Part shown: in pieces, positions 22,155 to 39,958 of the stretch
Layout of the letters: each line of letters starts with the position of its first letter
Position numbering within the stretch: the stretch's first letter is position 1
Source: Fibrobacteria bacterium AD312
GTDB lineage: Bacteria > Fibrobacterota > Fibrobacteria > Fibrobacterales > Fibrobacteraceae
Direction: 5' to 3'
DNA: 51,694 nucleotides
NCBI GenBank assembly: GCA_001462345.1
Contig: LIUM01000043.1
Location: 1 to 51,694, forward strand
The notes under the pieces: model-generated
What the model was told of the DNA's origin: nothing
Database searches by the model: none
The model's input: the letters and a program-made list of their open reading frames with translations, nothing else
Position numbers and translations under genes: made by a program

Positions 22155-22237
22155 AAGTTCCCTTTTGTAAAAAAACGAAAGACGCTTTATTACGATAAGC
22201 AGGAAACGTACAGAGAACCAAAATGGCCCTATCTATG

Positions 22238-22321
22238 CGCTTTTCCTACGGTTCAATTACGAACACAGGTTCAAGGGGTTTAATCTCAGCTCTTGCCGTT
22301 CAGCAGGGGCACCCCCAAGCG
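22238..22321 (-). promoter_or_regulatory. TPP riboswitch (THI element) upstream of thiG
   Basis: The minus-strand RNA shows the THI-box signatures in order: a P1 stem CGCTT/AAGCG, GGGGGTGCCCC, GAGCTGAGAT, ACCCCTTGAACCTG, then TTCGTAATTGAA and CCGTAGGAAAAG. It lies about 84 bases before thiG and should turn off thiG-thiH when thiamine pyrophosphate binds. No strong terminator was found between it and the ATG, so control may act on translation. Confidence 0.93.
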
Positions 22322-22383
22322 AAGCTTTTTGAAGAGGCTTCTTTTAAAAATAATAGTAAATAATAAAAAATCGGGTAGCTTAA

Positions 22384-25515: not shown

Positions 25516-25650
25516 AAATCAAGAATAGAATTTTTTTGACCCAAAAATGGAGCTGTATTAGAGAAATCTTTATACAATTGAAACCAAGCTATTTTATATG
25601 GGTTTTATAAAAGCTTCCCCAATTTACTGGGCACCTTTTTTTTAGAGAAG

Positions 25651-26930
25651 TCATTGGCATTGCTTTCGCAGATTGGGGAAACAAAAACGTTTGTTATTAA
25701 AAAAATGATGGCATCGGTTTCGCGGATTTGGTAAAAAAAATTGGATCAATGAAAGGGTTGGATTAAAATATTGGATTTATTTGATTTGGTGTTTTATGGG
25801 ATACTGCGGTTTATTTCGAAGAGTCCTTATTATTTGCATGGTGAACAAACTTGACGAGATATTCGATGGCATTGGTTTCACAGATCAGGGCAACAAAATT
25901 GGATTAATGAAAGGATTGGATTGATTGTGGCTTTTGGGAATGTAATTTTCTATAACCTCTTGAAATATAAGCACATTACGACCTTTTGGCGAGAAACAAT
26001 TATTACCGTTTCGGATTAAATTTTACTTTGTTTTTTTTAAACTGGGTGGAATATGTTTTGCCGATTTGAGCAAAATATTGATCTTTTTACGTCATTTTAT
26101 TCAATAAGTCAATGGAAATGGTTTCGCGGAACTGGGCAAAGAAAACGATTGTTATTGAAAAAAAATGATACCATTGATTTCGCAGATCAGCAACGAAATT
26201 GGATCGACCAAAGGATTGGATTAAAATATTGAATTGATTTGAATTAGTGTTTTTTGAGGCACTGCGGTTTATTTCGAAGAGTCATTATTATTTGCTTCAT
26301 GAACAAATTTGACGAGATATTCGATGGCATTGGTTTCACGGAACTGGGCAACAAAATTGGATCGATGAAAGGATTGGATTGATTGGGGTTTTTGGGAATA
26401 TGATTTTTTATAACCTATTGAAATATAAGAATATTACGACCGTTCGGTGAGAAATAATTATTACCGTATTGGATTAAGTTTTACTTTATTTTTTGGTTAA
26501 ACTGGGAGATTTTGGTTTCGTGAATTTGGACAATACATTGTATTTTTTTGCATCACATTATTGATTAAGTCAATGGCATGGGTTTCGCGGAATTGGGCAA
26601 AGAAAACGCTTGTTATTGAAAAAAAATGATATCATTGATTTCTTGAATTTGGGGAATAAAATTGGATTTATTTGATATAGTGTTTTTTGATGTGGCGTTA
26701 TTGAAAAAATGGTTGGTATTGGTTTCGCAGATTTAATAAAAAACGTTTATTATTGAAAAAAGGGTTGCTATCGGTTTTCCCGATTTAATAAAAAAGGATG
26801 ATATCGAAAAAAAATGTTTGGTATCGGTTTTGCCGTTTCAAAAAAGAGTGGTTAAAAAAAATGTTAAAAAAACGTTGGCATTGATTTCGCGTCAACAAAA
26901 GCACGAAACATTAACAACAGGATGAAACAT
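25651..26930. repeat. Tandem array of about 460-bp units with a 25-nt sub-motif
   Basis: The gap 25516-27298 carries two and a part copies of a 456-463-bp unit, starting near 25651, 26107 and 26570 with GTCAATGGCATGGTTTCG-like sequence. Within and beyond them a roughly 25-nt motif, near GGCATTGGTTTCGCGGATTTG, recurs about fourteen times down to 26890. All six frames are broken by stops, so it does not look coding. From 26930 to the nifJ start it is AT-rich spacer that should hold the nifJ promoter. Confidence 0.82.
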
Positions 26931-30994: not shown

Positions 30995-31288
30995 ATGATT
31001 AGGCCTAGAAAATATTTGTTTGAAGGGCAATCAGGGGGTCTATATTCAGATAGAAGTATTCAAAATATATTGAAAAATGCTTGCCATAAAGCAGGTATAA
31101 CAAAACACACAACGGTTCATACATTACGACATAGTTTTGCCACTCACCTATTGGAAAAAGGGACAGATTTAAGGTATATTCAAGAGATATTGGGGCATAG
31201 TAGCTCCAAAACGACTGAGATTTATACTCATGTTTCCAAGAAAATGATTGGCACAATAAGGAGCCCTTTTGATGATTTGGACATTTAG
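30995..31288 (+). pseudogene. Tyrosine recombinase remnant (integron integrase C-terminus)
   Basis: Only 97 codons remain, about the last third of an XerC/IntI-type enzyme. They carry [15 protein letters not shown] (the HxxR box), [15 protein letters not shown] (His and the Tyr nucleophile) and a [12 protein letters not shown] tail, but the N-terminal DNA-binding domain and the first catalytic Arg are missing. Upstream DNA to the nifJ terminator is not homologous in any frame, so the gene was cut by a deletion or rearrangement near 30990. It points the same way as the cassettes, unlike most integrons but as described for Treponema denticola. The IntI-specific insert would lie in the lost part, so IntI rather than XerC is inferred from context. 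Confidence 0.8.
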
Positions 31289-31426
31289 AGAAAACATTCG
31301 TAATACTACCTTATTTGGCAGGATATGCGCAACTGAGTTTCGTAATATATGCTATTTTTGGGTGGATATGCGCAATCGGGGTAAGATGGAAATATACGCC
31401 ATATGGCGTATATTTGGGAGTTGTGC
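31289..31426 (+). other. Probable attI recombination site
   Basis: Between the integrase stop and the first cassette lie two direct repeats, GGATATGCGCAAC (31321) and GGATATGCGCAAT (31364), in a shared 20-bp context. The core GTTGTGC is at 31420-31426, where cassette 1 begins. A core plus two upstream direct repeats is the pattern of attI sites. Assignment rests on position and pattern. Confidence 0.6.
31390..31415. repeat. Perfect 26-bp palindrome in the attI region
   Basis: Bases 31390-31402 (AAATATACGCCAT) and 31403-31415 are perfect reverse complements with no loop, five bases left of the first cassette junction. It could be a regulator or integrase-accessory site, or a recombination scar. 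Confidence 0.85.
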
Positions 31427-31502
31427 GAAATGCTTGGGAGGCTACCGGCAACCATGAGAAGGTACATGTGCGAAGAAAAAGAAGAAAAAACTTGCCCGTC
31501 TT
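31420..31502 (+). repeat. Cassette 1 left inverted repeat
   Basis: Three blocks match the reverse complement of 33422-33510: 31420-31442 (23 bp, two mismatches), 31464-31472 (ACATGTGCG) and 31485-31502 (18 bp, AAAAAACTTGCCCGTCTT). Unmatched segments of similar length separate them. Together they bracket the restriction-modification genes. Confidence 0.85.
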
Positions 31503-31552
31503 GGATGCTCGCCGTCCATGGCTCGCAAAGATAGAAAGAAAAGGAGTTTTAC

Positions 31553-32185
31553 TTGAGTAAGAAAACCATTAAACAAAAAATTTTTGAGCTAGCTCAAAAA
31601 TATTCTGACACTCTAAAAACTAAAATTGATGAAAGAGTAATAGAAATGAAAAGTGACGACAACTCTCATTATCTTATTTATAGAGTTTTAGGTATTTCAA
31701 AAAAAGAAGGGGAAGATATTGATATTTATCAAAACAAAGGTCGTTTCTTATACAAATATGCTGGGAGTTTTTTAGAAGAAGCTGCAACACTTTGTTTTAA
31801 AGAAAAGTTTCCGAATGGTTCTAAAACACGAGTCGATAACAATCAAGGGCAAAGACCAAAAACCTATGAAATTGATTTTTTGAATAATAATGATGCTATT
31901 GAAATAAAATGGAGAGATGCAACTACAGATGGTGATCATATCACAAAAGAACATACCAGAGTTAAAGCTATCAAGTCTTATAACTATAAACCAATTAGAA
32001 TAATGTTTTATTATCCAAATAGAACACAAGCAATAAGTATACAAGAGACTCTGAAAACCTTATATACAGGTGTTTCTGGAGAGTACTACTCTGGTGATGA
32101 AGCTTGGGATTATCTAAAATCGTATACAGGAATAGATTTAAGAAAAATACTAGAAGAAATTGCTGATAAAAGAGGGGTCAAATAA
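31553..32185 (+). CDS. Type II restriction endonuclease, ApaLI-like
   Basis: This 210-aa protein is encoded just before and touching a DNA methyltransferase gene, the standard restriction-modification arrangement. A PD-(D/E)XK-like core is visible: YEIDFLNNNDAIEIKWRD, with Asp, Glu and Lys in the expected order. The sequence from KWRDATTDGDHITKEHTR through PIRIMFYYPNR recalls the ApaLI endonuclease family (GTGCAC), but this is from memory and the site is not proven. Translation starts at a TTG six bases after AAGGAG. It is the first cargo gene of cassette 1, next to the attI. Confidence 0.72.
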   Translation: MSKKTIKQKIFELAQKYSDTLKTKIDERVIEMKSDDNSHYLIYRVLGISKKEGEDIDIYQNKGRFLYKYAGSFLEEAATLCFKEKFPNGSKTRVDNNQGQRPKTYEIDFLNNNDAIEIKWRDATTDGDHITKEHTRVKAIKSYNYKPIRIMFYYPNRTQAISIQETLKTLYTGVSGEYYSGDEAWDYLKSYTGIDLRKILEEIADKRGVK

Positions 32186-33421
32186 ATGATTCAAGAAAAT
32201 TCAGTAAATTTTGGAAATAATATTGATCTATTGAAGAATGTTAAAGATTGTACTATACAATGCATTTATATAGATCCACCATTCTTTACACAAAAAGACC
32301 ATAGCTTATATTCAGAAAAACATAAGAAAGAAATGAAATTTTCAGATAAATGGATAAATCTTTCTGACTACCTAAAGTACATCAAAAACCTTCTTTCTGA
32401 ATGTAAGAAAAAATTAAAAGATGATGGAACCATATTTTTACATTGTGATAAAACAGCATCTCACCACATTAGAGTATTGCTTGATGAAGTGTTTGGAGCT
32501 GATAAGTTTATAAATGAAATTATTTGGACATATAGACGATGGTCAAATTCTAGGGATGGTTTACTAAACTCGCATCAAAATATTTATTTTTATGCTAAGT
32601 CTAAATCTTTTAAATTCAACAAATTATTTACTGATTACTCACCTACAACAAATATTGACCAAATACTTCAATCAAGGGAACGAAATGAAAATGGAAAATC
32701 CATTTATCAAACAGATACAAATGGTAATGTAATTCTAGGAAAAGAAAAGAAAGGCGTTCCACTTTCAGATGTTTGGGAAATACCATATCTTAACCCAAAA
32801 GCAAAAGAACGTGTTGGGTATCCAACTCAGAAACCATATCTTTTACTTAAGCAGATTATAGAGATTTCAACAAGCGAAGGTGATATTGTACTAGATCCTT
32901 GCTGTGGAAGTGGTACAACATGTGTGACCGCAAAATTACTTAATCGGAAGTATATTGGAATTGATATTTCTAATGAAGCTATAGATATATCTAAAAGCCG
33001 TTTAGATAATCCAGTTGTTACAAGTTCTGCTTTACTTAAAAACGGAAAAGAGGATTATTACAATCAAGACATTTATAAAGTGCCCTACTTAGAAATTTTA
33101 AATGCTATTCCTGTCCAGAGGAATAAAGGAATTGATGGATTTCTTAAGGAATATTTTAATAACAAACCCGTTGCAGTGAAAATACAAGGACATAATCAAA
33201 CATTACAAAGTGCTGTTTCTGAGTTACTAAATAGCACACAATCTAAAAAATGTGAAAAACTTATTCTGATTAAAACTAACGACAGCACAGAATTGTCACT
33301 TTTTAACAACGAGATAAAGGATGATAGGCTTACAATTGTTGACAGTTTTTCTTTAATAGCAAGCAAATTATTAGAAAATGATAAAAGCAATAGCCTCCGC
33401 ACATCCGTGTGCTCTGGCTAA
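32186..33421 (+). CDS. DNA N6-adenine/N4-cytosine methyltransferase of the restriction system
   Basis: This 411-aa beta-class methyltransferase (N4/N6 family) has the catalytic motif IYIDPPFF near residue 30 before the SAM-binding motif LDPCCGSGTTCVTA near 235, the circular order that defines the class. It protects host DNA from the adjacent nuclease. Its ATG follows the nuclease stop with no gap, so translation is coupled. About 120 C-terminal residues beyond the catalytic core may be the target-recognition part or a cassette-specific tail. The stop lies about 80 bases before attC1. Confidence 0.88.
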   Translation: MIQENSVNFGNNIDLLKNVKDCTIQCIYIDPPFFTQKDHSLYSEKHKKEMKFSDKWINLSDYLKYIKNLLSECKKKLKDDGTIFLHCDKTASHHIRVLLDEVFGADKFINEIIWTYRRWSNSRDGLLNSHQNIYFYAKSKSFKFNKLFTDYSPTTNIDQILQSRERNENGKSIYQTDTNGNVILGKEKKGVPLSDVWEIPYLNPKAKERVGYPTQKPYLLLKQIIEISTSEGDIVLDPCCGSGTTCVTAKLLNRKYIGIDISNEAIDISKSRLDNPVVTSSALLKNGKEDYYNQDIYKVPYLEILNAIPVQRNKGIDGFLKEYFNNKPVAVKIQGHNQTLQSAVSELLNSTQSKKCEKLILIKTNDSTELSLFNNEIKDDRLTIVDSFSLIASKLLENDKSNSLRTSVCSG

Positions 33422-33510
33422 AAGACGGGCAAGTTTTTTAAGCAGAAAGAACGCACATGTATAAAGAAGCATTAACGTATGAAGACCGCCTCCCAAGCAC
33501 ATCGCACAAC
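33422..33510 (-). repeat. Cassette 1 right inverted repeat
   Basis: This is the reverse-complement partner of 31420-31502. It begins right after the methyltransferase stop (AAGACGGGCAAGTT) and ends with the attC1 R'' GCACAAC. Confidence 0.85.
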
Positions 33511-33597
33511 AGCGGCTATATGGTTCCGTTTCGCTCCACCCAAATTTTTGCTCCACTGCGTTCCGCAAAAACTTCATATAGCCGCGGGACGTTAGTG
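33504..33597 (+). other. attC site of cassette 1
   Basis: R'' is GCACAAC (33504-33510) and R' is GTTAGTG (33591-33597). The inner arm AGCGGCTATATG pairs with CATATAGCCGC. R'' is complementary to the start of cassette 1 (GTTGTGC at 31420). The spacer resembles that of attC5. Confidence 0.9.
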
Positions 33598-33646
33598 GCA
33601 AGGCTAAGAACGACACCCAACGAAGTGAAAAGACGAAATAATAAAT

Positions 33647-34102
33647 ATGGCAACTCAACACTATACACATACTGACTATTACACAGCATCGTTGACAAGA
33701 TATGCTGACTTGACACACTTAAAAACAAACAGAAATTCAGCAATATTCTCTGTTTATACAGCAGGTGTTACCATAGAATGTATGTTTAGAGCATATATCA
33801 CAAAATACACGAAAGAATTTGACTCCAAACACGACTTAGAAAAATTATACACTAAATCTTTGCTTGGGTCTCAATTTGACACAGATGAAAAAGAACGATT
33901 GACAATTGCCGTGAAAAAAGCTAACAACATTTGGTCAAACGATTTGAGATATGCTTCTGAAAAAAGAATGAAACGAATAATAGCACACAAAAACATAAGA
34001 GCAAATCTTAATGATGTAAACGCATTTATTAACAGAGAGTATAATGCTATTTTTGATGCAACCGAATTAATAATTGAAAAAGGCAAAGAAAAATGGACTT
34101 AA
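33647..34102 (+). CDS. HEPN-like protein, cassette 2 gene 1
   Basis: This 151-aa all-alpha protein has two HEPN-like stretches. The first is AGVTIECMFRAYITKY with SKHDLEKLYTKS, where HEPN domains carry their AxxxE and HDL motifs. The second is RMKRIIAH, which fits the RX4-6H ribonuclease motif. HEPN proteins are often RNA-cutting toxins in abortive-infection and toxin-antitoxin systems. It overlaps the next gene by 10 bases, so the two are translated together. The assignment is by eye. It could also be a non-catalytic HEPN partner. Confidence 0.5.
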   Translation: MATQHYTHTDYYTASLTRYADLTHLKTNRNSAIFSVYTAGVTIECMFRAYITKYTKEFDSKHDLEKLYTKSLLGSQFDTDEKERLTIAVKKANNIWSNDLRYASEKRMKRIIAHKNIRANLNDVNAFINREYNAIFDATELIIEKGKEKWT

Positions 34103-34866
34103 TAGACAAAATAACAAAAATAATAAATGAGACTGAGGGCTTACAGCACCCCATTGTTGAATTGCGTTTTGACAATCAAAAAAATGTCGTTGGACATATT
34201 ACTGATGATAAATTTAAAAGCCTTTCTAACGAAGACAGTCAAAAATTAATTTGGACTTCCTTAAAGAAAAATTTGGAAGCAGACGAATTAATCAAAGTAA
34301 TTGCCATTTTCCACGAAACACCATTAGAAAGAGTTGAGAGACTAAACGGATACAAACCGAAAGATGCTCAAACATCAAATTTTTGGTTTCATCAAACACC
34401 AGAACTTGCCAAATATTGGCTTTTCATTGATGTAGCAAAATTTGGAAATGACTTCAAATCGTTCTTCCTTATCATAAGTGAGAAAAACAAAGTAAACAAA
34501 GGCTTGACTTTTGTATATAACAAAGAGGTTTTGGACTTTATGGAACTTGAACAAAACGAAATTTATGATGAACTTTATTCTAATACTTTTGGTAATGCAG
34601 AAGCGGAAGTCAAGTTAGATTTAATGAATAAGTATGAAAGTTTTCAATCTCAACAGTTGTACGGTAAAGCAAATATGTATTGGTACGTTTACGAAGATTT
34701 TAAATTGACACCAATAACTAAAAACCAACTTCTTTTTACTGAAAAAGAAATTTCAATGATTGAGAATGGATTTAAAAACATTGACAATTTCAGTATAAAA
34801 AATGACATTGAATTAGCAATGAAAAAATCTAAAATAATTAACCAAAATAAGGCGGAAATAAAATAA
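34093..34866 (+). CDS. Unknown protein, cassette 2 gene 2
   Basis: No family was recognised for this 257-aa protein. The first 80 residues (DKITKIINETEGLQHPIVELRF to VIAIFHETPLERVERL) have a loose BolA-like pattern, but that is weak. The middle holds many aromatics (NFWFHQTPELAKYWLFIDVAKFGNDF, YGKANMYWYVYEDF) and looks like a soluble alpha/beta domain. There is no signal peptide or membrane helix. It overlaps the HEPN-like gene and ends just before attC2, so the two make up the whole cassette and probably one system, such as effector plus sensor or antidote. Confidence 0.6.
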   Translation: MDLIDKITKIINETEGLQHPIVELRFDNQKNVVGHITDDKFKSLSNEDSQKLIWTSLKKNLEADELIKVIAIFHETPLERVERLNGYKPKDAQTSNFWFHQTPELAKYWLFIDVAKFGNDFKSFFLIISEKNKVNKGLTFVYNKEVLDFMELEQNEIYDELYSNTFGNAEAEVKLDLMNKYESFQSQQLYGKANMYWYVYEDFKLTPITKNQLLFTEKEISMIENGFKNIDNFSIKNDIELAMKKSKIINQNKAEIK

Positions 34867-34871
34867 GCCCA

Positions 34872-35007
34872 GCCACTAACAGCACCTACACGCAAGCAGG
34901 GGGTTCGTGCTTCGTAGGACAGGAAAGTGCTATATTTGAAGTTCAGTTCTTCGTAGGAAGTTCAGTGGTTATAATCCCTGCCTGCGTGTAGCTGCAAACC
35001 GTTAGCC
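34872..35007 (+). other. attC site of cassette 2
   Basis: R'' is GCCACTAAC and R' is GTTAGCC. The long arm AGCACCTACACGCAAGCAGG pairs with CCTGCCTGCGTGTAGCTGC (with small bulges). The apical part carries two CTTCGTAGGA direct repeats. Confidence 0.92.
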
Positions 35008-35039
35008 CCAATTTAGAAGAACTGAGAAACAATAGAATT

Positions 35040-35933
35040 ATGCCAATATACGTAGAGAAAAACGGAAGCTTAAAGAAACTGAAATCATATGCAATTGATA
35101 AGGAAAAGAAATTGCAGGAATTAGTAGAGCAAAACTTAATGGAAGTTTTGGATATGCATTTTCTTGCAACAGAATATACAACGACTTTCGGTGGCAGAAT
35201 TGATACATTAGCAGTTGATAGAAATGGAGCACCTGTAATTATTGAATATAAAAGAGGAAAGAATGATAATGTAATTAATCAAGCATTATCATATTTGAAA
35301 TGGTTACAAGCTCAAAAAGTGGAATTTTTTGAAATGTTAATAATCAAAACATTAGGAAATGAAATATCCAAAGAACTTAAAATTGACTGGCAAAACCCAA
35401 GAGTGATTTGCATTGCTGAATCATATAGTAAATTCGACATTGATACGGTAGAAGTTATTCCAATGCGTATAGAACTTTTAAAATACAGATATTACGAGAA
35501 TGGAATTTTCAGCCTGGAACCTCTAAATGCATCCGAACAAAAAACATCAAATAAGGAAACTGTTGATAATCCATCAAAATCACCGATTGACTATTCAGTA
35601 GAACAACACTTACAAAAACCATCAGAAAAAATAAAGAATATTTTTCAGGATTTACGCAGTCGGATTTTTGAAATTGACGAGAATATTAAGGAGAAAGCAA
35701 CTTCTATGTATATTGGTTACCGAGTGACGAAATCATTTGCAGAAATTCATATCGGTAAGAATCAGATTAAAATGTATCTAAGACCAATTGAATACAATGA
35801 CCCTAAAAAAATGGTAGAAAAGATTCCAGATGGTTATAATTGGACTCTAAATCATAGAGTTTACATAAAGGAAAAAGATGAGTTGGATTATATTTTTGGA
35901 TTAATTGAACAATCATATCAAGACGTTTTATAA
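35040..35933 (+). CDS. DUF5655 protein with PD-(D/E)XK nuclease-like core
   Basis: This 297-aa protein opens MPIYVEKNGSLKKLKSY and has GGRIDTLAVDRNGAPVIIEYKRG near 52-74, matching the D...ExK core of NucS/DUF91-like nucleases. NPRVICIAESYSKFD follows, then a C-terminal domain from about 200 (IKNIFQDLRSRIFEIDENIKEK) like DUF5655. The family is common in bacteria but has no settled function; a role in DNA cleavage is inferred from the core. It is the first gene of cassette 3. Confidence 0.78.
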   Translation: MPIYVEKNGSLKKLKSYAIDKEKKLQELVEQNLMEVLDMHFLATEYTTTFGGRIDTLAVDRNGAPVIIEYKRGKNDNVINQALSYLKWLQAQKVEFFEMLIIKTLGNEISKELKIDWQNPRVICIAESYSKFDIDTVEVIPMRIELLKYRYYENGIFSLEPLNASEQKTSNKETVDNPSKSPIDYSVEQHLQKPSEKIKNIFQDLRSRIFEIDENIKEKATSMYIGYRVTKSFAEIHIGKNQIKMYLRPIEYNDPKKMVEKIPDGYNWTLNHRVYIKEKDELDYIFGLIEQSYQDVL

Positions 35934-36218
35934 ATGGCACTTACAGAAATACAGAAACAGAAATTCTTGGAAATTTCAGGAATGAAATATGAAGGAAATG
36001 AAATGAAAGGTCAATTTTCAACGCAGAGAGCCTACAATGATGATAAATGGAAGGAGCATTCGCCTTGGATTTTTACATATGTTATAGAACCAGACTCAGG
36101 AAACTTAATCTGTGAGTTAGAGCATAGAATGACTAACAATCGGATTTTTGGGTGGGATAAAGATGGAAATGACCTATCAACAGAGATAACTGAAAAATAT
36201 TTTAAACCACATTGGTAA
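35934..36218 (+). CDS. Small hypothetical protein, cassette 3 gene 2
   Basis: The family is not recognised. The 94-aa protein is Trp- and Tyr-rich (DDKWKEHSPWIFTYVIEPDSGNL, MTNNRIFGWDKDG) and looks like a small beta-sheet domain. Its ATG abuts the TAA of the DUF5655 nuclease gene, so translation is coupled and a partner or immunity role is possible. It ends 9 bases before attC3. Confidence 0.6.
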   Translation: MALTEIQKQKFLEISGMKYEGNEMKGQFSTQRAYNDDKWKEHSPWIFTYVIEPDSGNLICELEHRMTNNRIFGWDKDGNDLSTEITEKYFKPHW

Positions 36219-36227
36219 TCAAAAACT

Positions 36228-36359
36228 GGGGCTAACAATGTATAAAAATAATAGCCGAAATAGTAGTAGATTCAAGGGATGTAGCCCGCATCAACTTTCT
36301 TGTAACTTGACATGAAAGTGGCACGCAGTCGGCTACTATTCTTATACTAAACGTTAACG
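36228..36359 (+). other. attC site of cassette 3
   Basis: R'' is GGGGCTAAC and R' is GTTAACG. The inner arm AATAATAGCCGA pairs with TCGGCTACTATT. The spacer phrase GTAGCCCGCA is shared with attC4. Confidence 0.9.
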
Positions 36360-36403
36360 CCAATATTAAGAATCAGCAACACATCTAATAACAGAAGAAT
36401 AAT

Positions 36404-38140
36404 ATGACTTTACCAGAACCTCAATCGACAACATTTTCGAATCTATTGAACGAAATTGAAAAAGGACAGATTAAAATACCACAGTTTCAACGAGATTTTG
36501 TGTGGGATATAAAGAAGTCTGCAAATCTTATGGATAGTATTATAAAAGGTTATCCAATAGGTACATTTATATTTTGGAAAACAAACGAAAGGCTACGTTC
36601 AGTAAGGAACATGGGAGATTTTAATTTGCCAGAGCCTGAGGATGGCGATTTTGTCAATTATGTTCTTGATGGACAACAGAGGCTTACTAGTTTGTTTGCA
36701 AGTTTAAAAGGACTTAAAATAAAAAGAGATGAGAATAAAACAGATGATTATGCAGAGTTATATGTTGATTTGGAAGCGAAAGAGGACGAGCAAATAGTTA
36801 TACTTGAACAAATAGACAAGAGTAAGCAAAGTTTAATACGGATTACAGATTTATTGTATGCAGAATTAACACAATTAGTTAGCTATCCTAGTCAATATCA
36901 TAAAACAATATCTGAGTACAAAAAAAGGATAGAATCATACAACTACTCAATTATCTTAATTAAAGAGGCTCCAATTGATATAGCGACTGAGATTTTTACT
37001 AGGATCAATGTTGGAGGTAAACCTTTGTCATTATTTGAGATAATGGTTGCAAAAACCTATGAGTACAAAAAAGTAACTGACTTAAACACAAATGAAGAAA
37101 AGATATATATATTCGATTTATCTGATAAATTCAAGATACTTATTTCTGATTTGACACCGGTAAATTATGAAACGATTTCTGACGCTACAGTTCTTCAAAC
37201 CGTAGCGATGATTTTATCAAAAGACTGCTCAAAAAAAGCTATTTTAAAGCTTGATAAATCAGAGTTTATAAATACTTGGCCTGCGGCCGTGGATGCGATT
37301 AAATCTTCGATCGAATACTTTCGAGGTTTCTATAGAATTCCTGTTTCACAATTACTTCCATATAATGCTTTAATTGTTCCATTTTCTTATTTTTTCTATC
37401 ATCACAAGGATAAGCCTACGGGTGATAAACAAAAATATCTTCAAGATTTCTTTTGGCGTTGTTCCATCAGTGGTCGCTATTCATCAAGCGTTGAAAGTAA
37501 ACTTGCACAGGATATTAAAAAAATTGACAATATTTTAGCAAATCAACTTCCGAATTATGAATGGTCTGTTGATACTTCAAAAGACTTCATTATAAAATAT
37601 GGTTGGTTCAATGCGGGTAAGGCTTTTATTAAATCTATTTTGAGTTTATATGCCTATCATCAGCCAAAATCATTCAATGACGAATCAATTGTAAATATTA
37701 GTAATTATTGGCTGAAGCAAGCAAATAGTAAGAATTATCATCATTTCTTTCCTCGTGCCTTTTTAAGAAAGCGGCAAGAAGAAGAGTTTTTCATTAATCA
37801 CATTGCAAACATTACGATTGTTGATGACTTTTTAAACAAAAGGGAAATAAGGGCTCAAGCTCCCTCAAAATATATGAAAAGATTCTTAAAACATAATTCA
37901 AATCTAAGTCAAACCATGTCAACACATTTAATTACTGATTTGGATGAATTCGGCATTTGGGAAGATGACTATAATAAGTTTTTTGACTGTAGGGTTAATG
38001 CAATATCTAAAGAATTAGACAAACGAATAATCAAACAAGATATTGATAAACAAAACATAACTGTGGTTTTGGAAGACGACGCAGAAGAACCAGTTGAACT
38101 TGAGTTAATTAACGAAGAAAATGGAGACTCAAATGAATAA
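36404..38140 (+). CDS. DUF262/DUF1524-type protein, GmrSD-like
   Basis: This 578-aa protein has an N-terminal DUF262 ParB-like domain (IKIPQFQRDFVWD, YPIGTFIFW, and the nucleotide-site motif VLDGQQRLTSL near 88) and a C-terminal HNH-like region (NYHHFFPRAFLRKR then HIANITIVDDFLNKREI). That layout is the single-chain form of GmrSD type IV restriction enzymes, also related to SspE and BrxU, which attack modified phage DNA. It fills cassette 4 alone. A phage-defence role is inferred from the family and the neighbours. Confidence 0.82.
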   Translation: MTLPEPQSTTFSNLLNEIEKGQIKIPQFQRDFVWDIKKSANLMDSIIKGYPIGTFIFWKTNERLRSVRNMGDFNLPEPEDGDFVNYVLDGQQRLTSLFASLKGLKIKRDENKTDDYAELYVDLEAKEDEQIVILEQIDKSKQSLIRITDLLYAELTQLVSYPSQYHKTISEYKKRIESYNYSIILIKEAPIDIATEIFTRINVGGKPLSLFEIMVAKTYEYKKVTDLNTNEEKIYIFDLSDKFKILISDLTPVNYETISDATVLQTVAMILSKDCSKKAILKLDKSEFINTWPAAVDAIKSSIEYFRGFYRIPVSQLLPYNALIVPFSYFFYHHKDKPTGDKQKYLQDFFWRCSISGRYSSSVESKLAQDIKKIDNILANQLPNYEWSVDTSKDFIIKYGWFNAGKAFIKSILSLYAYHQPKSFNDESIVNISNYWLKQANSKNYHHFFPRAFLRKRQEEEFFINHIANITIVDDFLNKREIRAQAPSKYMKRFLKHNSNLSQTMSTHLITDLDEFGIWEDDYNKFFDCRVNAISKELDKRIIKQDIDKQNITVVLEDDAEEPVELELINEENGDSNE

Positions 38141-38146
38141 GAAATA

Positions 38147-38282
38147 CTGGCGTTAACAAAAACTATATGTCAATTGCCGTTTCCGTGCTGACAACAAGCC
38201 GTGTAGCCCGCAACAACGGCGGTGCGGCTCGACAGGAAAGCAATCCGCAGTCGGCAACTGCATATAGTTCCGTCCGTTATAT
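38147..38282 (+). other. attC site of cassette 4
   Basis: R'' is TGGCGTTAAC and R' is GTTATAT. The arm AACTATATGTCAATTGCCG pairs with CGGCAACTGCATATAGTT (small bulges). Confidence 0.9.
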
Positions 38283-38311
38283 GCCATTGCCAGCTCAAAG
38301 GAGAACATTTT

Positions 38312-38761
38312 GTGAATTGTGAAATTTTAGTAATTGGAAAGAAACAAATCAATAGTATAAAAACATTATGGGAAAAATTAAATGAAATTCATTTAAAAGA
38401 CTCCACGCACTTTAAAGATCACTACAAGTATTTTACATTTGAAGAAAGATGTGAAAAGTTCGACGAAATTAAAAACAGTAACATCAGAATTGAAGTGATT
38501 ATTGATAATAATAAAACAGTTGGTTATTGCATATCAACAATAGAAAAAAATACAGGTGAAATTGATTCACTATTTATTGAGCAAGAATATAGAAAATTCG
38601 GGTTCGGGCGACAATTAGTTGAGAATAGCATAAAATGGCTAAAGGCAAATGAATGTAAAAAAATTATGGTTTCTGTTGCAGAAGGGCATGAATCTGTTTT
38701 TGATTTTTATAGAAAGTTTGAGTTTTACCAAAGAATGACTTATTTACAACTGAAAGCATAA
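38312..38761 (+). CDS. GNAT-family N-acetyltransferase, cassette 5
   Basis: GNAT enzymes move an acetyl group from acetyl-CoA to an amine. The CoA-binding motif A is clear: IDSLFIEQEYRKFGFGRQLVENSIKWL. A longer frame opens at 38222, but that lies inside attC4. The GTG at 38312 follows AAAGGAG with 8 bases between and lies just inside the cassette, giving about 149 aa (NCEILVIGKKQIN...). The substrate is unknown. The last codons lie just before attC5. Confidence 0.8.
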   Translation: MNCEILVIGKKQINSIKTLWEKLNEIHLKDSTHFKDHYKYFTFEERCEKFDEIKNSNIRIEVIIDNNKTVGYCISTIEKNTGEIDSLFIEQEYRKFGFGRQLVENSIKWLKANECKKIMVSVAEGHESVFDFYRKFEFYQRMTYLQLKA

Positions 38762-38778
38762 ACAGAACCGCTGGCAAC

Positions 38779-38873
38779 GGCATATAACAGCGAATATGAG
38801 ATTCCGCCTTCGGCTCCATCCAAATTGCCTACGCTTCGCTCCGGCAACTTCTCATATTCGCGAAACGTTGTGC
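38779..38873 (+). other. attC site of cassette 5
   Basis: R'' is GGCATATAAC and R' is GTTGTGC. The perfect arm GCGAATATGAGA pairs with TCTCATATTCGC. The central sequence (TTCCG, TTCGGCTCCA, CCAAATT) matches attC1. Confidence 0.92.
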
Positions 38874-38898
38874 GCAACCATGAAAGACAGCGACATCA

Positions 38899-39846
38899 AT
38901 GAAAATTAGAGACTTTAAACTTGAAGATTTGAATATTATGAGAATGTGGTTAGGACAAGACTACATTCAAAAATTTTTTGGCGACCCGCATGATTGGATT
39001 AAAGAAATATCTGAAAATATAAGTGCTGATTGGGTTAAATATTTCATTGTAGAATGTGGTACGCCAGTAGGTTTTCTTCAGTATTATGAAACAGATAAGG
39101 CACCACAAGGAGAATGGTCGAACGAACCAATCGGAACTGTCGGTATTGATTATCTCATAGGAGATATTGAATATTTAGGGAAAGGATATGGTTCAAAAAC
39201 CGTTCGTTTATTGGTTGACTTTATCAAATCAAAAAACGAGTATGATTACATTGTAGCTGACCCAATTGTAGAGAATGTATCATCCATAAAAGTGCTTGAA
39301 AATAATGGTTTTAAACAAAATGCTAATGGACTTTTTTGTTTGGATTTGACCAACACAGGAATAAAGATTTATAGAGCTACCAAACAAGATGTCGGTATGA
39401 TAACTCAGCTGTTTCGAGATACTATCCAAAATGTGAACTCAAAAGATTACCCAGCAGACGAAATAGATGACTGGTCATCATGGTGGACTGACCATGATAA
39501 ATGGCAGGAAAAAATTGAAAAACAGTATTTTATTAAAGCAATGATTGAAGACAAAACAGTTGGATTTAGTTCATTATCAACTGATGGATATCTCGATTTT
39601 ATGTTTACTCATAAAGATTACCAAAGACATGGAGTTGCAAGTAATTTGATAAGTAAGATTGAAAAAAAAGCAAAAGAACAAGGTAATGATTTGATATATT
39701 CGGATGTAAGCATTACTGCAAAAGGATTTTTTGAAAGACATGGATATTTTGTTGAAAAACAGCAATTCAAAAAGTCAAGAAACAAAGAATTGATTAATTT
39801 TAGAATGACAAAAAGAATAAATGGCAGCGCCCAACAACGGGTATAA
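38899..39846 (+). CDS. Double GNAT protein, N-terminal half AAC(6')-like
   Basis: Residues 1-150 follow the AAC(6')-I aminoglycoside acetyltransferase pattern: MWLGQDYIQKFFGDPHDW, PVGFLQYYETD, GIDYLIGDIEYLGKGYGSKTVRLLVDFI, VADPIVENVSSIKVLENNGF. Residues 155-300 are a second GNAT domain (MFTHKDYQRHGVASNLISKIEKKAKEQG, FFERHGYFVEKQQF). The 315-aa fusion is cassette 6. Acetylation of an aminoglycoside is a reasonable inference for the first half only; the second half could act on something else. The stop codon lies within attC6, so the site encodes the last residues (SAQQRV). Confidence 0.78.
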   Translation: MKIRDFKLEDLNIMRMWLGQDYIQKFFGDPHDWIKEISENISADWVKYFIVECGTPVGFLQYYETDKAPQGEWSNEPIGTVGIDYLIGDIEYLGKGYGSKTVRLLVDFIKSKNEYDYIVADPIVENVSSIKVLENNGFKQNANGLFCLDLTNTGIKIYRATKQDVGMITQLFRDTIQNVNSKDYPADEIDDWSSWWTDHDKWQEKIEKQYFIKAMIEDKTVGFSSLSTDGYLDFMFTHKDYQRHGVASNLISKIEKKAKEQGNDLIYSDVSITAKGFFERHGYFVEKQQFKKSRNKELINFRMTKRINGSAQQRV

Positions 39847-39958
39847 AACATTGGGGGTTAGTCTGTTATCATGCATTTGCACCCGTATCATGTTTCTTCT
39901 CGTGGGATACGGACGCGCCTCGCAATCCCCAACGTTTCATACACGCAAACCGTTATAA
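39827..39958 (+). other. attC site of cassette 6 (last recognisable)
   Basis: R'' is GCGCCCAAC, with one mismatch to the complement of the cassette start GTTGTGCGC. R' is GTTATAA. Arms AACATTGGGG and CCCCAACGTT pair. It overlaps the 3' end of the double-GNAT gene. Confidence 0.82.

Follow-up and report, generated by a model that had tools for sequence, protein, structure and literature searches.

The sixth and last cassette of an integron array in Fibrobacteria bacterium AD312 is a genuine, mobile and unusual gene cassette that carries two GNAT acetyltransferase domains in one gene. We put at roughly one in two the probability that it is a mobile cassette for a tandem acetyltransferase that detoxifies amine-bearing compounds, with both domains active. 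The window, by which we mean the whole stretch of contig LIUM01000043.1 that was analysed (51,694 nucleotides), contains the array together with the remnant of an integrase gene. All coordinates refer to this window.

Table 1. Features of the array and of cassette 6.
Feature	Position	Strand	Basis or description
Integron-type tyrosine integrase remnant	30995..31288	+	C-terminal 97 aa only; PF00589 E 1.2e-23; TIGR02249 positions 239-315, 102 bits
Cassettes 1-5, same array	31420..38866	+	Profile matches: R-M, no family, PDC-S18, GmrSD-N, GNAT
attC5, upstream site	38782..38873	+	Its R' box GTTGTGC opens cassette 6; attC scan score 26
Cassette 6	38867..39951	+	G^TT boundary to next G^TT boundary; attC scan
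Tandem GNAT ORF, 315 aa	38899..39846	+	ATG start, open frame; AF2 pLDDT 89.3, pTM 0.81
N-terminal GNAT domain (Acetyltransf_8)	38899..39357	+	Placed as sister lineage of AAC(6')-Ib/Ie
C-terminal GNAT domain, YafP-like (PRK09831)	39358..39843	+	NF007338, phmmer, Foldseek
attC6, cassette 6's own recombination site, last in array	39829..39958	+	attC scan score 24

The six-cassette attC array, which runs from 31420 to 39951, is real. In all six cassettes the ten-base head finds its best complement in the R'' box of the cassette itself (9, 9, 10, 10, 10 and 8 of 10 positions), while non-matching pairs of head and R'' reach 8 at most. In a gapped scan of the 51.7-kb window, the six top-ranked attC-like structures are exactly these six sites. 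Two earlier scans had missed some of them because the arms of the attC sites contain bulges; the gapped scan, run at a lower threshold, recovered 6/6. The bottom strands of all six sites fold into imperfect hairpins, attC6 included, with z-scores from -1.7 to -3.7 (attC5: -2.4), and Rfam gave no match to an attC-type family. Cassette 6 itself consists of a single gene between attC sites, with only 32 bases between the cassette edge and the ATG. Its head GTTGTGCGCA is complementary to its own R'' AGCGCCCAAC (39826-39835) at 8/10 positions, a match that ties with two other sites, and both its head match and its fold z-score rank last among the six. The original prediction had given the cassette as 38868-39952, which is the span found here (38867-39951) counted after the G^TT cut, and its reading of an integron cassette is borne out by the matched attC halves and the six-site array.

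The array is rich in defence-type cargo. The first cassette holds a complete pair of an ApaLI-like restriction endonuclease and a DNA methyltransferase (31553-33421), making it a two-gene restriction-modification cassette. Cassette 2 has two ORFs that match no family; cassettes 3 and 4 encode a PDC-S18 candidate defence protein and a GmrSD-N (DUF262) protein, respectively, and cassette 5 encodes a second GNAT protein (38312-38761). The longest ORF of this cassette 5 gene has a GTG start at 38222 that falls within attC4; the GTG at 38312, just after a GGAG, is the likelier start and gives a product of 149 aa. Upstream of the array, and oriented like the cassettes, lies the integrase remnant, which is only 97 aa long, so that for the array to move at present an integrase would have to be supplied from another source. 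Another integron-type integrase gene, on contig C11 of the same genome (94342-95028), is interrupted, and both integron-type integrase genes found in the genome look broken.

A second GNAT domain in the same frame, and hence an unusual layout, had been predicted from the sequence; profile searches, the single 315-aa ORF and the AlphaFold2 model agree with this, and the N-terminal motifs quoted at the time are present in the ORF. The profile scores are 66 bits (Acetyltransf_8) for the N-domain and 70 bits (Acetyltransf_1) for the C-domain, and the model shows two confident folds. Both halves combine the GNAT fold with an intact acetyl-CoA pyrophosphate-binding motif (GKGYG in the N-domain, QRHGVA in the C-domain), which is kept in the complete orthologues. 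Values of dN/dS among complete fusions (0.06-0.35 for the N-domain, 0.06-0.10 for the C-domain) indicate purifying selection on both. In tandem GNATs one half is often inactive, and tandem GNATs of similar size are present in the PDB (5kf1, 7q3a and VipF), which would be in keeping with a protein in which one domain is catalytic and the other structural or substrate-gating. We consider this rather unlikely here, given that both motifs are intact, that selection acts on both domains and that each domain also occurs alone, the N-domain at loci L018 and L020 and the C-domain at L017.

In the tree, the N-domain is placed in an uncharacterised clade beside AAC(6')-Ib/Ie; by sequence and predicted fold, its nearest characterised relatives are AAC(6') enzymes. 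These enzymes come first in NCBIfam (AAC_6p_set_A, NF012165, 50 bits; AAC_6p_Ib, NF033074, 48 bits), among PDB sequences (phmmer: AAC(6')-Ib at 5e-12, then AAC(6')-Im and -Ie, with the lysine acyltransferase MbtK behind) and among PDB folds (a Foldseek search with the AlphaFold2 model: AAC(6')-Ib structures at TMt 0.74-0.77, with only the C-domain's match ranking higher). In a plasmid collection biased towards resistance genes, the matches listed were aac(6') genes except for a GNAT of Enterococcus gallinarum (41%) and an unannotated Streptomyces stretch. All this speaks for a true aminoglycoside 6'-N-acetyltransferase, that is a reservoir resistance gene with the C-domain as passenger or stabiliser, as does the precedent of AAC(6')-Ie, a distant member and yet an AAC(6'). 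On the other side, the N-domain scores 6-8 times lower than the curated AAC(6') cut-offs (280 for set A, 400 for Ib) and reaches neither; the predicted AAC(6')-I pattern holds as a similarity (50 bits to set A) but falls far short of that model's threshold.

The phylogeny argues against this aminoglycoside reading as well. In a tree of 35 N-domains, five AAC(6') references among them, the N-domain falls into a separate clade with GNATs of Bacteroidota, Fibrobacterota and Enterococcus (98/95); a second clade (98/95) unites AAC(6')-Ib, -IIa, -IIc and -31, and a third is made up of ordinary Bacteroidota Acetyltransf_8 proteins. A tree in which the fusion lineage is made to join the AAC(6')-Ib group is 53 log units worse and is rejected (AU p=3.5e-6). 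For a wider group that adds AAC(6')-Ie and three Bacteroidota AAC-like proteins the cost is 8.8 and the rejection weaker (p=0.038), and the deeper relation is unsure because of long branches in the tree. The N-domain thus falls outside the AAC(6')-Ib clade, which in part is the outcome that the original prediction had named as speaking against it.

The substrate pocket gives a divided picture. Compared with the residue list for AAC(6')-Ib (PMC8471502), about half of the pocket is kept: D stands for E73 and F for W49, and V75, Q91, Y93, W103, D115 and D152 are present. Lost are Y65 (I), S98 (A), D100 (Q), W102 and D179 (loop absent), so that of the aminoglycoside-contact residues on which the prediction had been staked, some are in place and others missing. 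The GNAT tyrosine Y164 is replaced as well (L). What is kept includes Q91, W103, D115 and D152, which are not diagnostic of AAC(6') because most of 15 generic Acetyltransf_8 GNATs carry them too. What is lost includes Y65, Y164 and the acidic residue 179, all three found in 5/5 AAC(6') references and in none of the fusion clade. Given this partial likeness to AAC(6'), the N-domain may take an aminoglycoside as substrate, but a true 6'-N-acetyltransferase seems doubtful to us. An aminosugar, a polyamine or an unknown antimicrobial is at least as likely a substrate.

The C-domain is a family-level relative of YafP only, since it scores 88 bits with NF007338 (PRK09831) against an equivalog cut-off of 146. 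Its phmmer match is 2fiw (E 2.6e-16), which is also the top Foldseek match (TMt 0.88), and its identity to E. coli YafP, a product of the dinB operon, is 32% (tblastn). YafP and 2fiw are stand-alone single domains, whereas the C-domain belongs to the same family in fused form. In the tree, the fused C-domains form one clade (98/93) whose sister is a solo Bacteroidales protein, on a branch separate from E. coli YafP and at long distances. E. coli YafP is described as an antimutator towards 4-nitroquinoline-1-oxide and as a member of the LexA regulon, and its gene adjoins the yafN-yafO toxin-antitoxin pair (PMC5120126). A second tandem GNAT was noticed in a Bacteroidia genome (L055, G335:C14, reverse strand, frame 988-1965 of the reverse complement), with an unrelated N-terminal GNAT, by eye of RimI type, and a YafP-like C-domain. 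Because this apparently independent fusion exists, fusion of a YafP-like domain to another GNAT has probably happened repeatedly.

The fusion checked for in other genomes does occur there and is not confined to integrons, and no copy was found on the plasmids searched. Among 84,980 species genomes scanned, the complete fusion is present in Mariniphaga sediminis (84% protein identity), Geofilum rubicundum (83%) and one Saprospiraceae MAG (74%); in a Smithella MAG the copy is cut off by the contig end (91% protein, 93% DNA identity). DNA identity of the fused gene in other phyla is 78-93%. A Lentimicrobium MAG has a TAA between the two domains, and another Mariniphaga MAG has lost the N-domain except for its first codons; AU tests on whether the Lentimicrobium tandem arose independently gave p values of 0.45 and 0.15 for one clade and favour neither origin. 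Among sampled genomes (101 of relatives, 395 of Bacteroidia and 395 of Bacteroidota), such fusions were seen in the starting genomes only, so the fusion is rare. The plasmids searched held no copy of it, viral contigs no relative, and phages C-domain matches only. Plasmid matches that seemed to cover about 89% of the query proved to be two separate class 1 integron genes, aac(6')-Ib3 and a YafP-like GNAT, and no fusion. On Klebsiella plasmid NZ_CP084785.1 (L060:1493-2005), the YafP-like GNAT WP_001102919.1 directly follows aac(6')-Ib3 and aac(3)-Ia in a class 1 integron, which places the same two enzyme types side by side, unfused.

Outside the integron, the homologues have ordinary chromosomal surroundings, and the gapped scan recognised no intact attC sites beside the Bacteroidota copies. 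DNA homology with Mariniphaga and Geofilum begins at the left edge of cassette 6, and in Mariniphaga it runs 20 bp into attC6 (0/500 shuffles scored as high). These comparisons suggest that the two copies, now chromosomal, derive from a cassette with an attC site that has since degenerated. The Smithella copy adjoins an IS91-type Y2 transposase and a tyrosine integrase (L014:877-2944), which suggests a second mobility route for the fused gene; the DNA identity stops a few hundred bases before the transposase gene, and mis-binning of the contig is possible.

Sequence is a notoriously poor guide to the substrates of GNAT enzymes. We infer activity, substrate class and a role in detoxification because two intact motifs, selection on both domains and a defence-rich array fit an enzyme that acts on amine-bearing small molecules. 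Both domains, each with an acetyl-CoA site, are probably active. The likeliest target of the N-domain would be the primary amine of a small molecule, probably one resembling an aminosugar or a polyamine; that of the C-domain would be a further group or another toxic amine. Acting jointly, the two would render an environmental antimicrobial or xenobiotic harmless. We count against this reading that we found no context of aminoglycoside biosynthesis or exposure, and the ordinary chromosomal surroundings of the homologues would also fit a metabolic or protein-acetylating role. A more far-reaching version, in which a two-step enzyme doubly modifies one natural antimicrobial and represents an unrecognised resistance class that moves between anaerobes via integrons and IS91-type elements, strikes us as a long shot. 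Although GNAT toxins exist, toxin-antitoxin cassettes are frequent in integron arrays and E. coli yafP has the neighbours mentioned above, it is very improbable that the product is a GNAT toxin or protein acetyltransferase of a toxin-antitoxin or addiction cassette, as cassette 6 has no partner ORF, the nearest families are small-molecule enzymes and the PADLOC models gave no match.

The idea of a resistance cassette draws on the nearest characterised relatives and is opposed by clade, pocket and plasmid evidence; it stays hypothetical, next to the broader detoxifying reading that we prefer. In either case, the cassette links an uncharacterised lineage beside AAC(6') to a mobile element in a Fibrobacter-type bacterium. 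If the N-domain is active on aminoglycosides, it is a reservoir form outside current resistance models; if it is not, Acetyltransf_8 GNATs in integrons should not be named aac(6') on similarity alone.

Parts of this arrangement have precedents. AAC(6')-Ib (aacA4), -IIa, -IIc and -31 are likewise integron cassettes with an Acetyltransf_8-type GNAT fold, and the AAC(6')-Ib group shares 27% identity with the N-domain and has D115, D152, Q91, Y93 and W103 in common with it. In contrast to that group, the N-domain is in its own clade, is without Y65, D100, Y164 and the D179 loop, and is followed by a second GNAT. Fused integron cassettes have been described as well, namely ant(3'')-Ii/aac(6')-IId, aac(3)-Ib/aac(6')-Ib'' and aac(6')-30/aac(6')-Ib' (PMC8876359, PMC5889950). 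These three and AAC(6')-Ie/APH(2'')-Ia resemble cassette 6 in joining an AAC(6')-type domain and a second enzyme domain in one gene. Here, however, the partner is YafP-like, the activity is a predicted one, and the fusion is common to several phyla rather than a recent clinical one. The glucosamine N-acetyltransferase of C. acetobutylicum (5kf1), MAB_4324 (7q3a) and VipF are also chains of about 300 aa with two GNATs, but they differ in domain arrangement and domain families, with about 12-14% full-length identity and an rmsd of about 19 A over both domains. Both cassettes with fused aminoglycoside enzymes and tandem GNATs are thus known; cassette 6 stands apart in joining an AAC(6') sister domain to a YafP-like one, and in occurring across phyla outside clinical bacteria.

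Three further observations concern the rest of the window and the genome. The TIGR02147 Fibrobacter family has 13 copies in the host genome and 0 in 14 control genomes, which makes the host most likely a member of the Fibrobacteraceae; a gut or rumen habitat is presumed. The intergenic region 25639-26891 consists of degenerate direct repeats, with 299-nt copies at 458-nt spacing and 52-nt units. A TPP riboswitch (RF00059, 55.3 bits) lies on the minus strand at 22226-22326, near genes of thiamine biosynthesis type.
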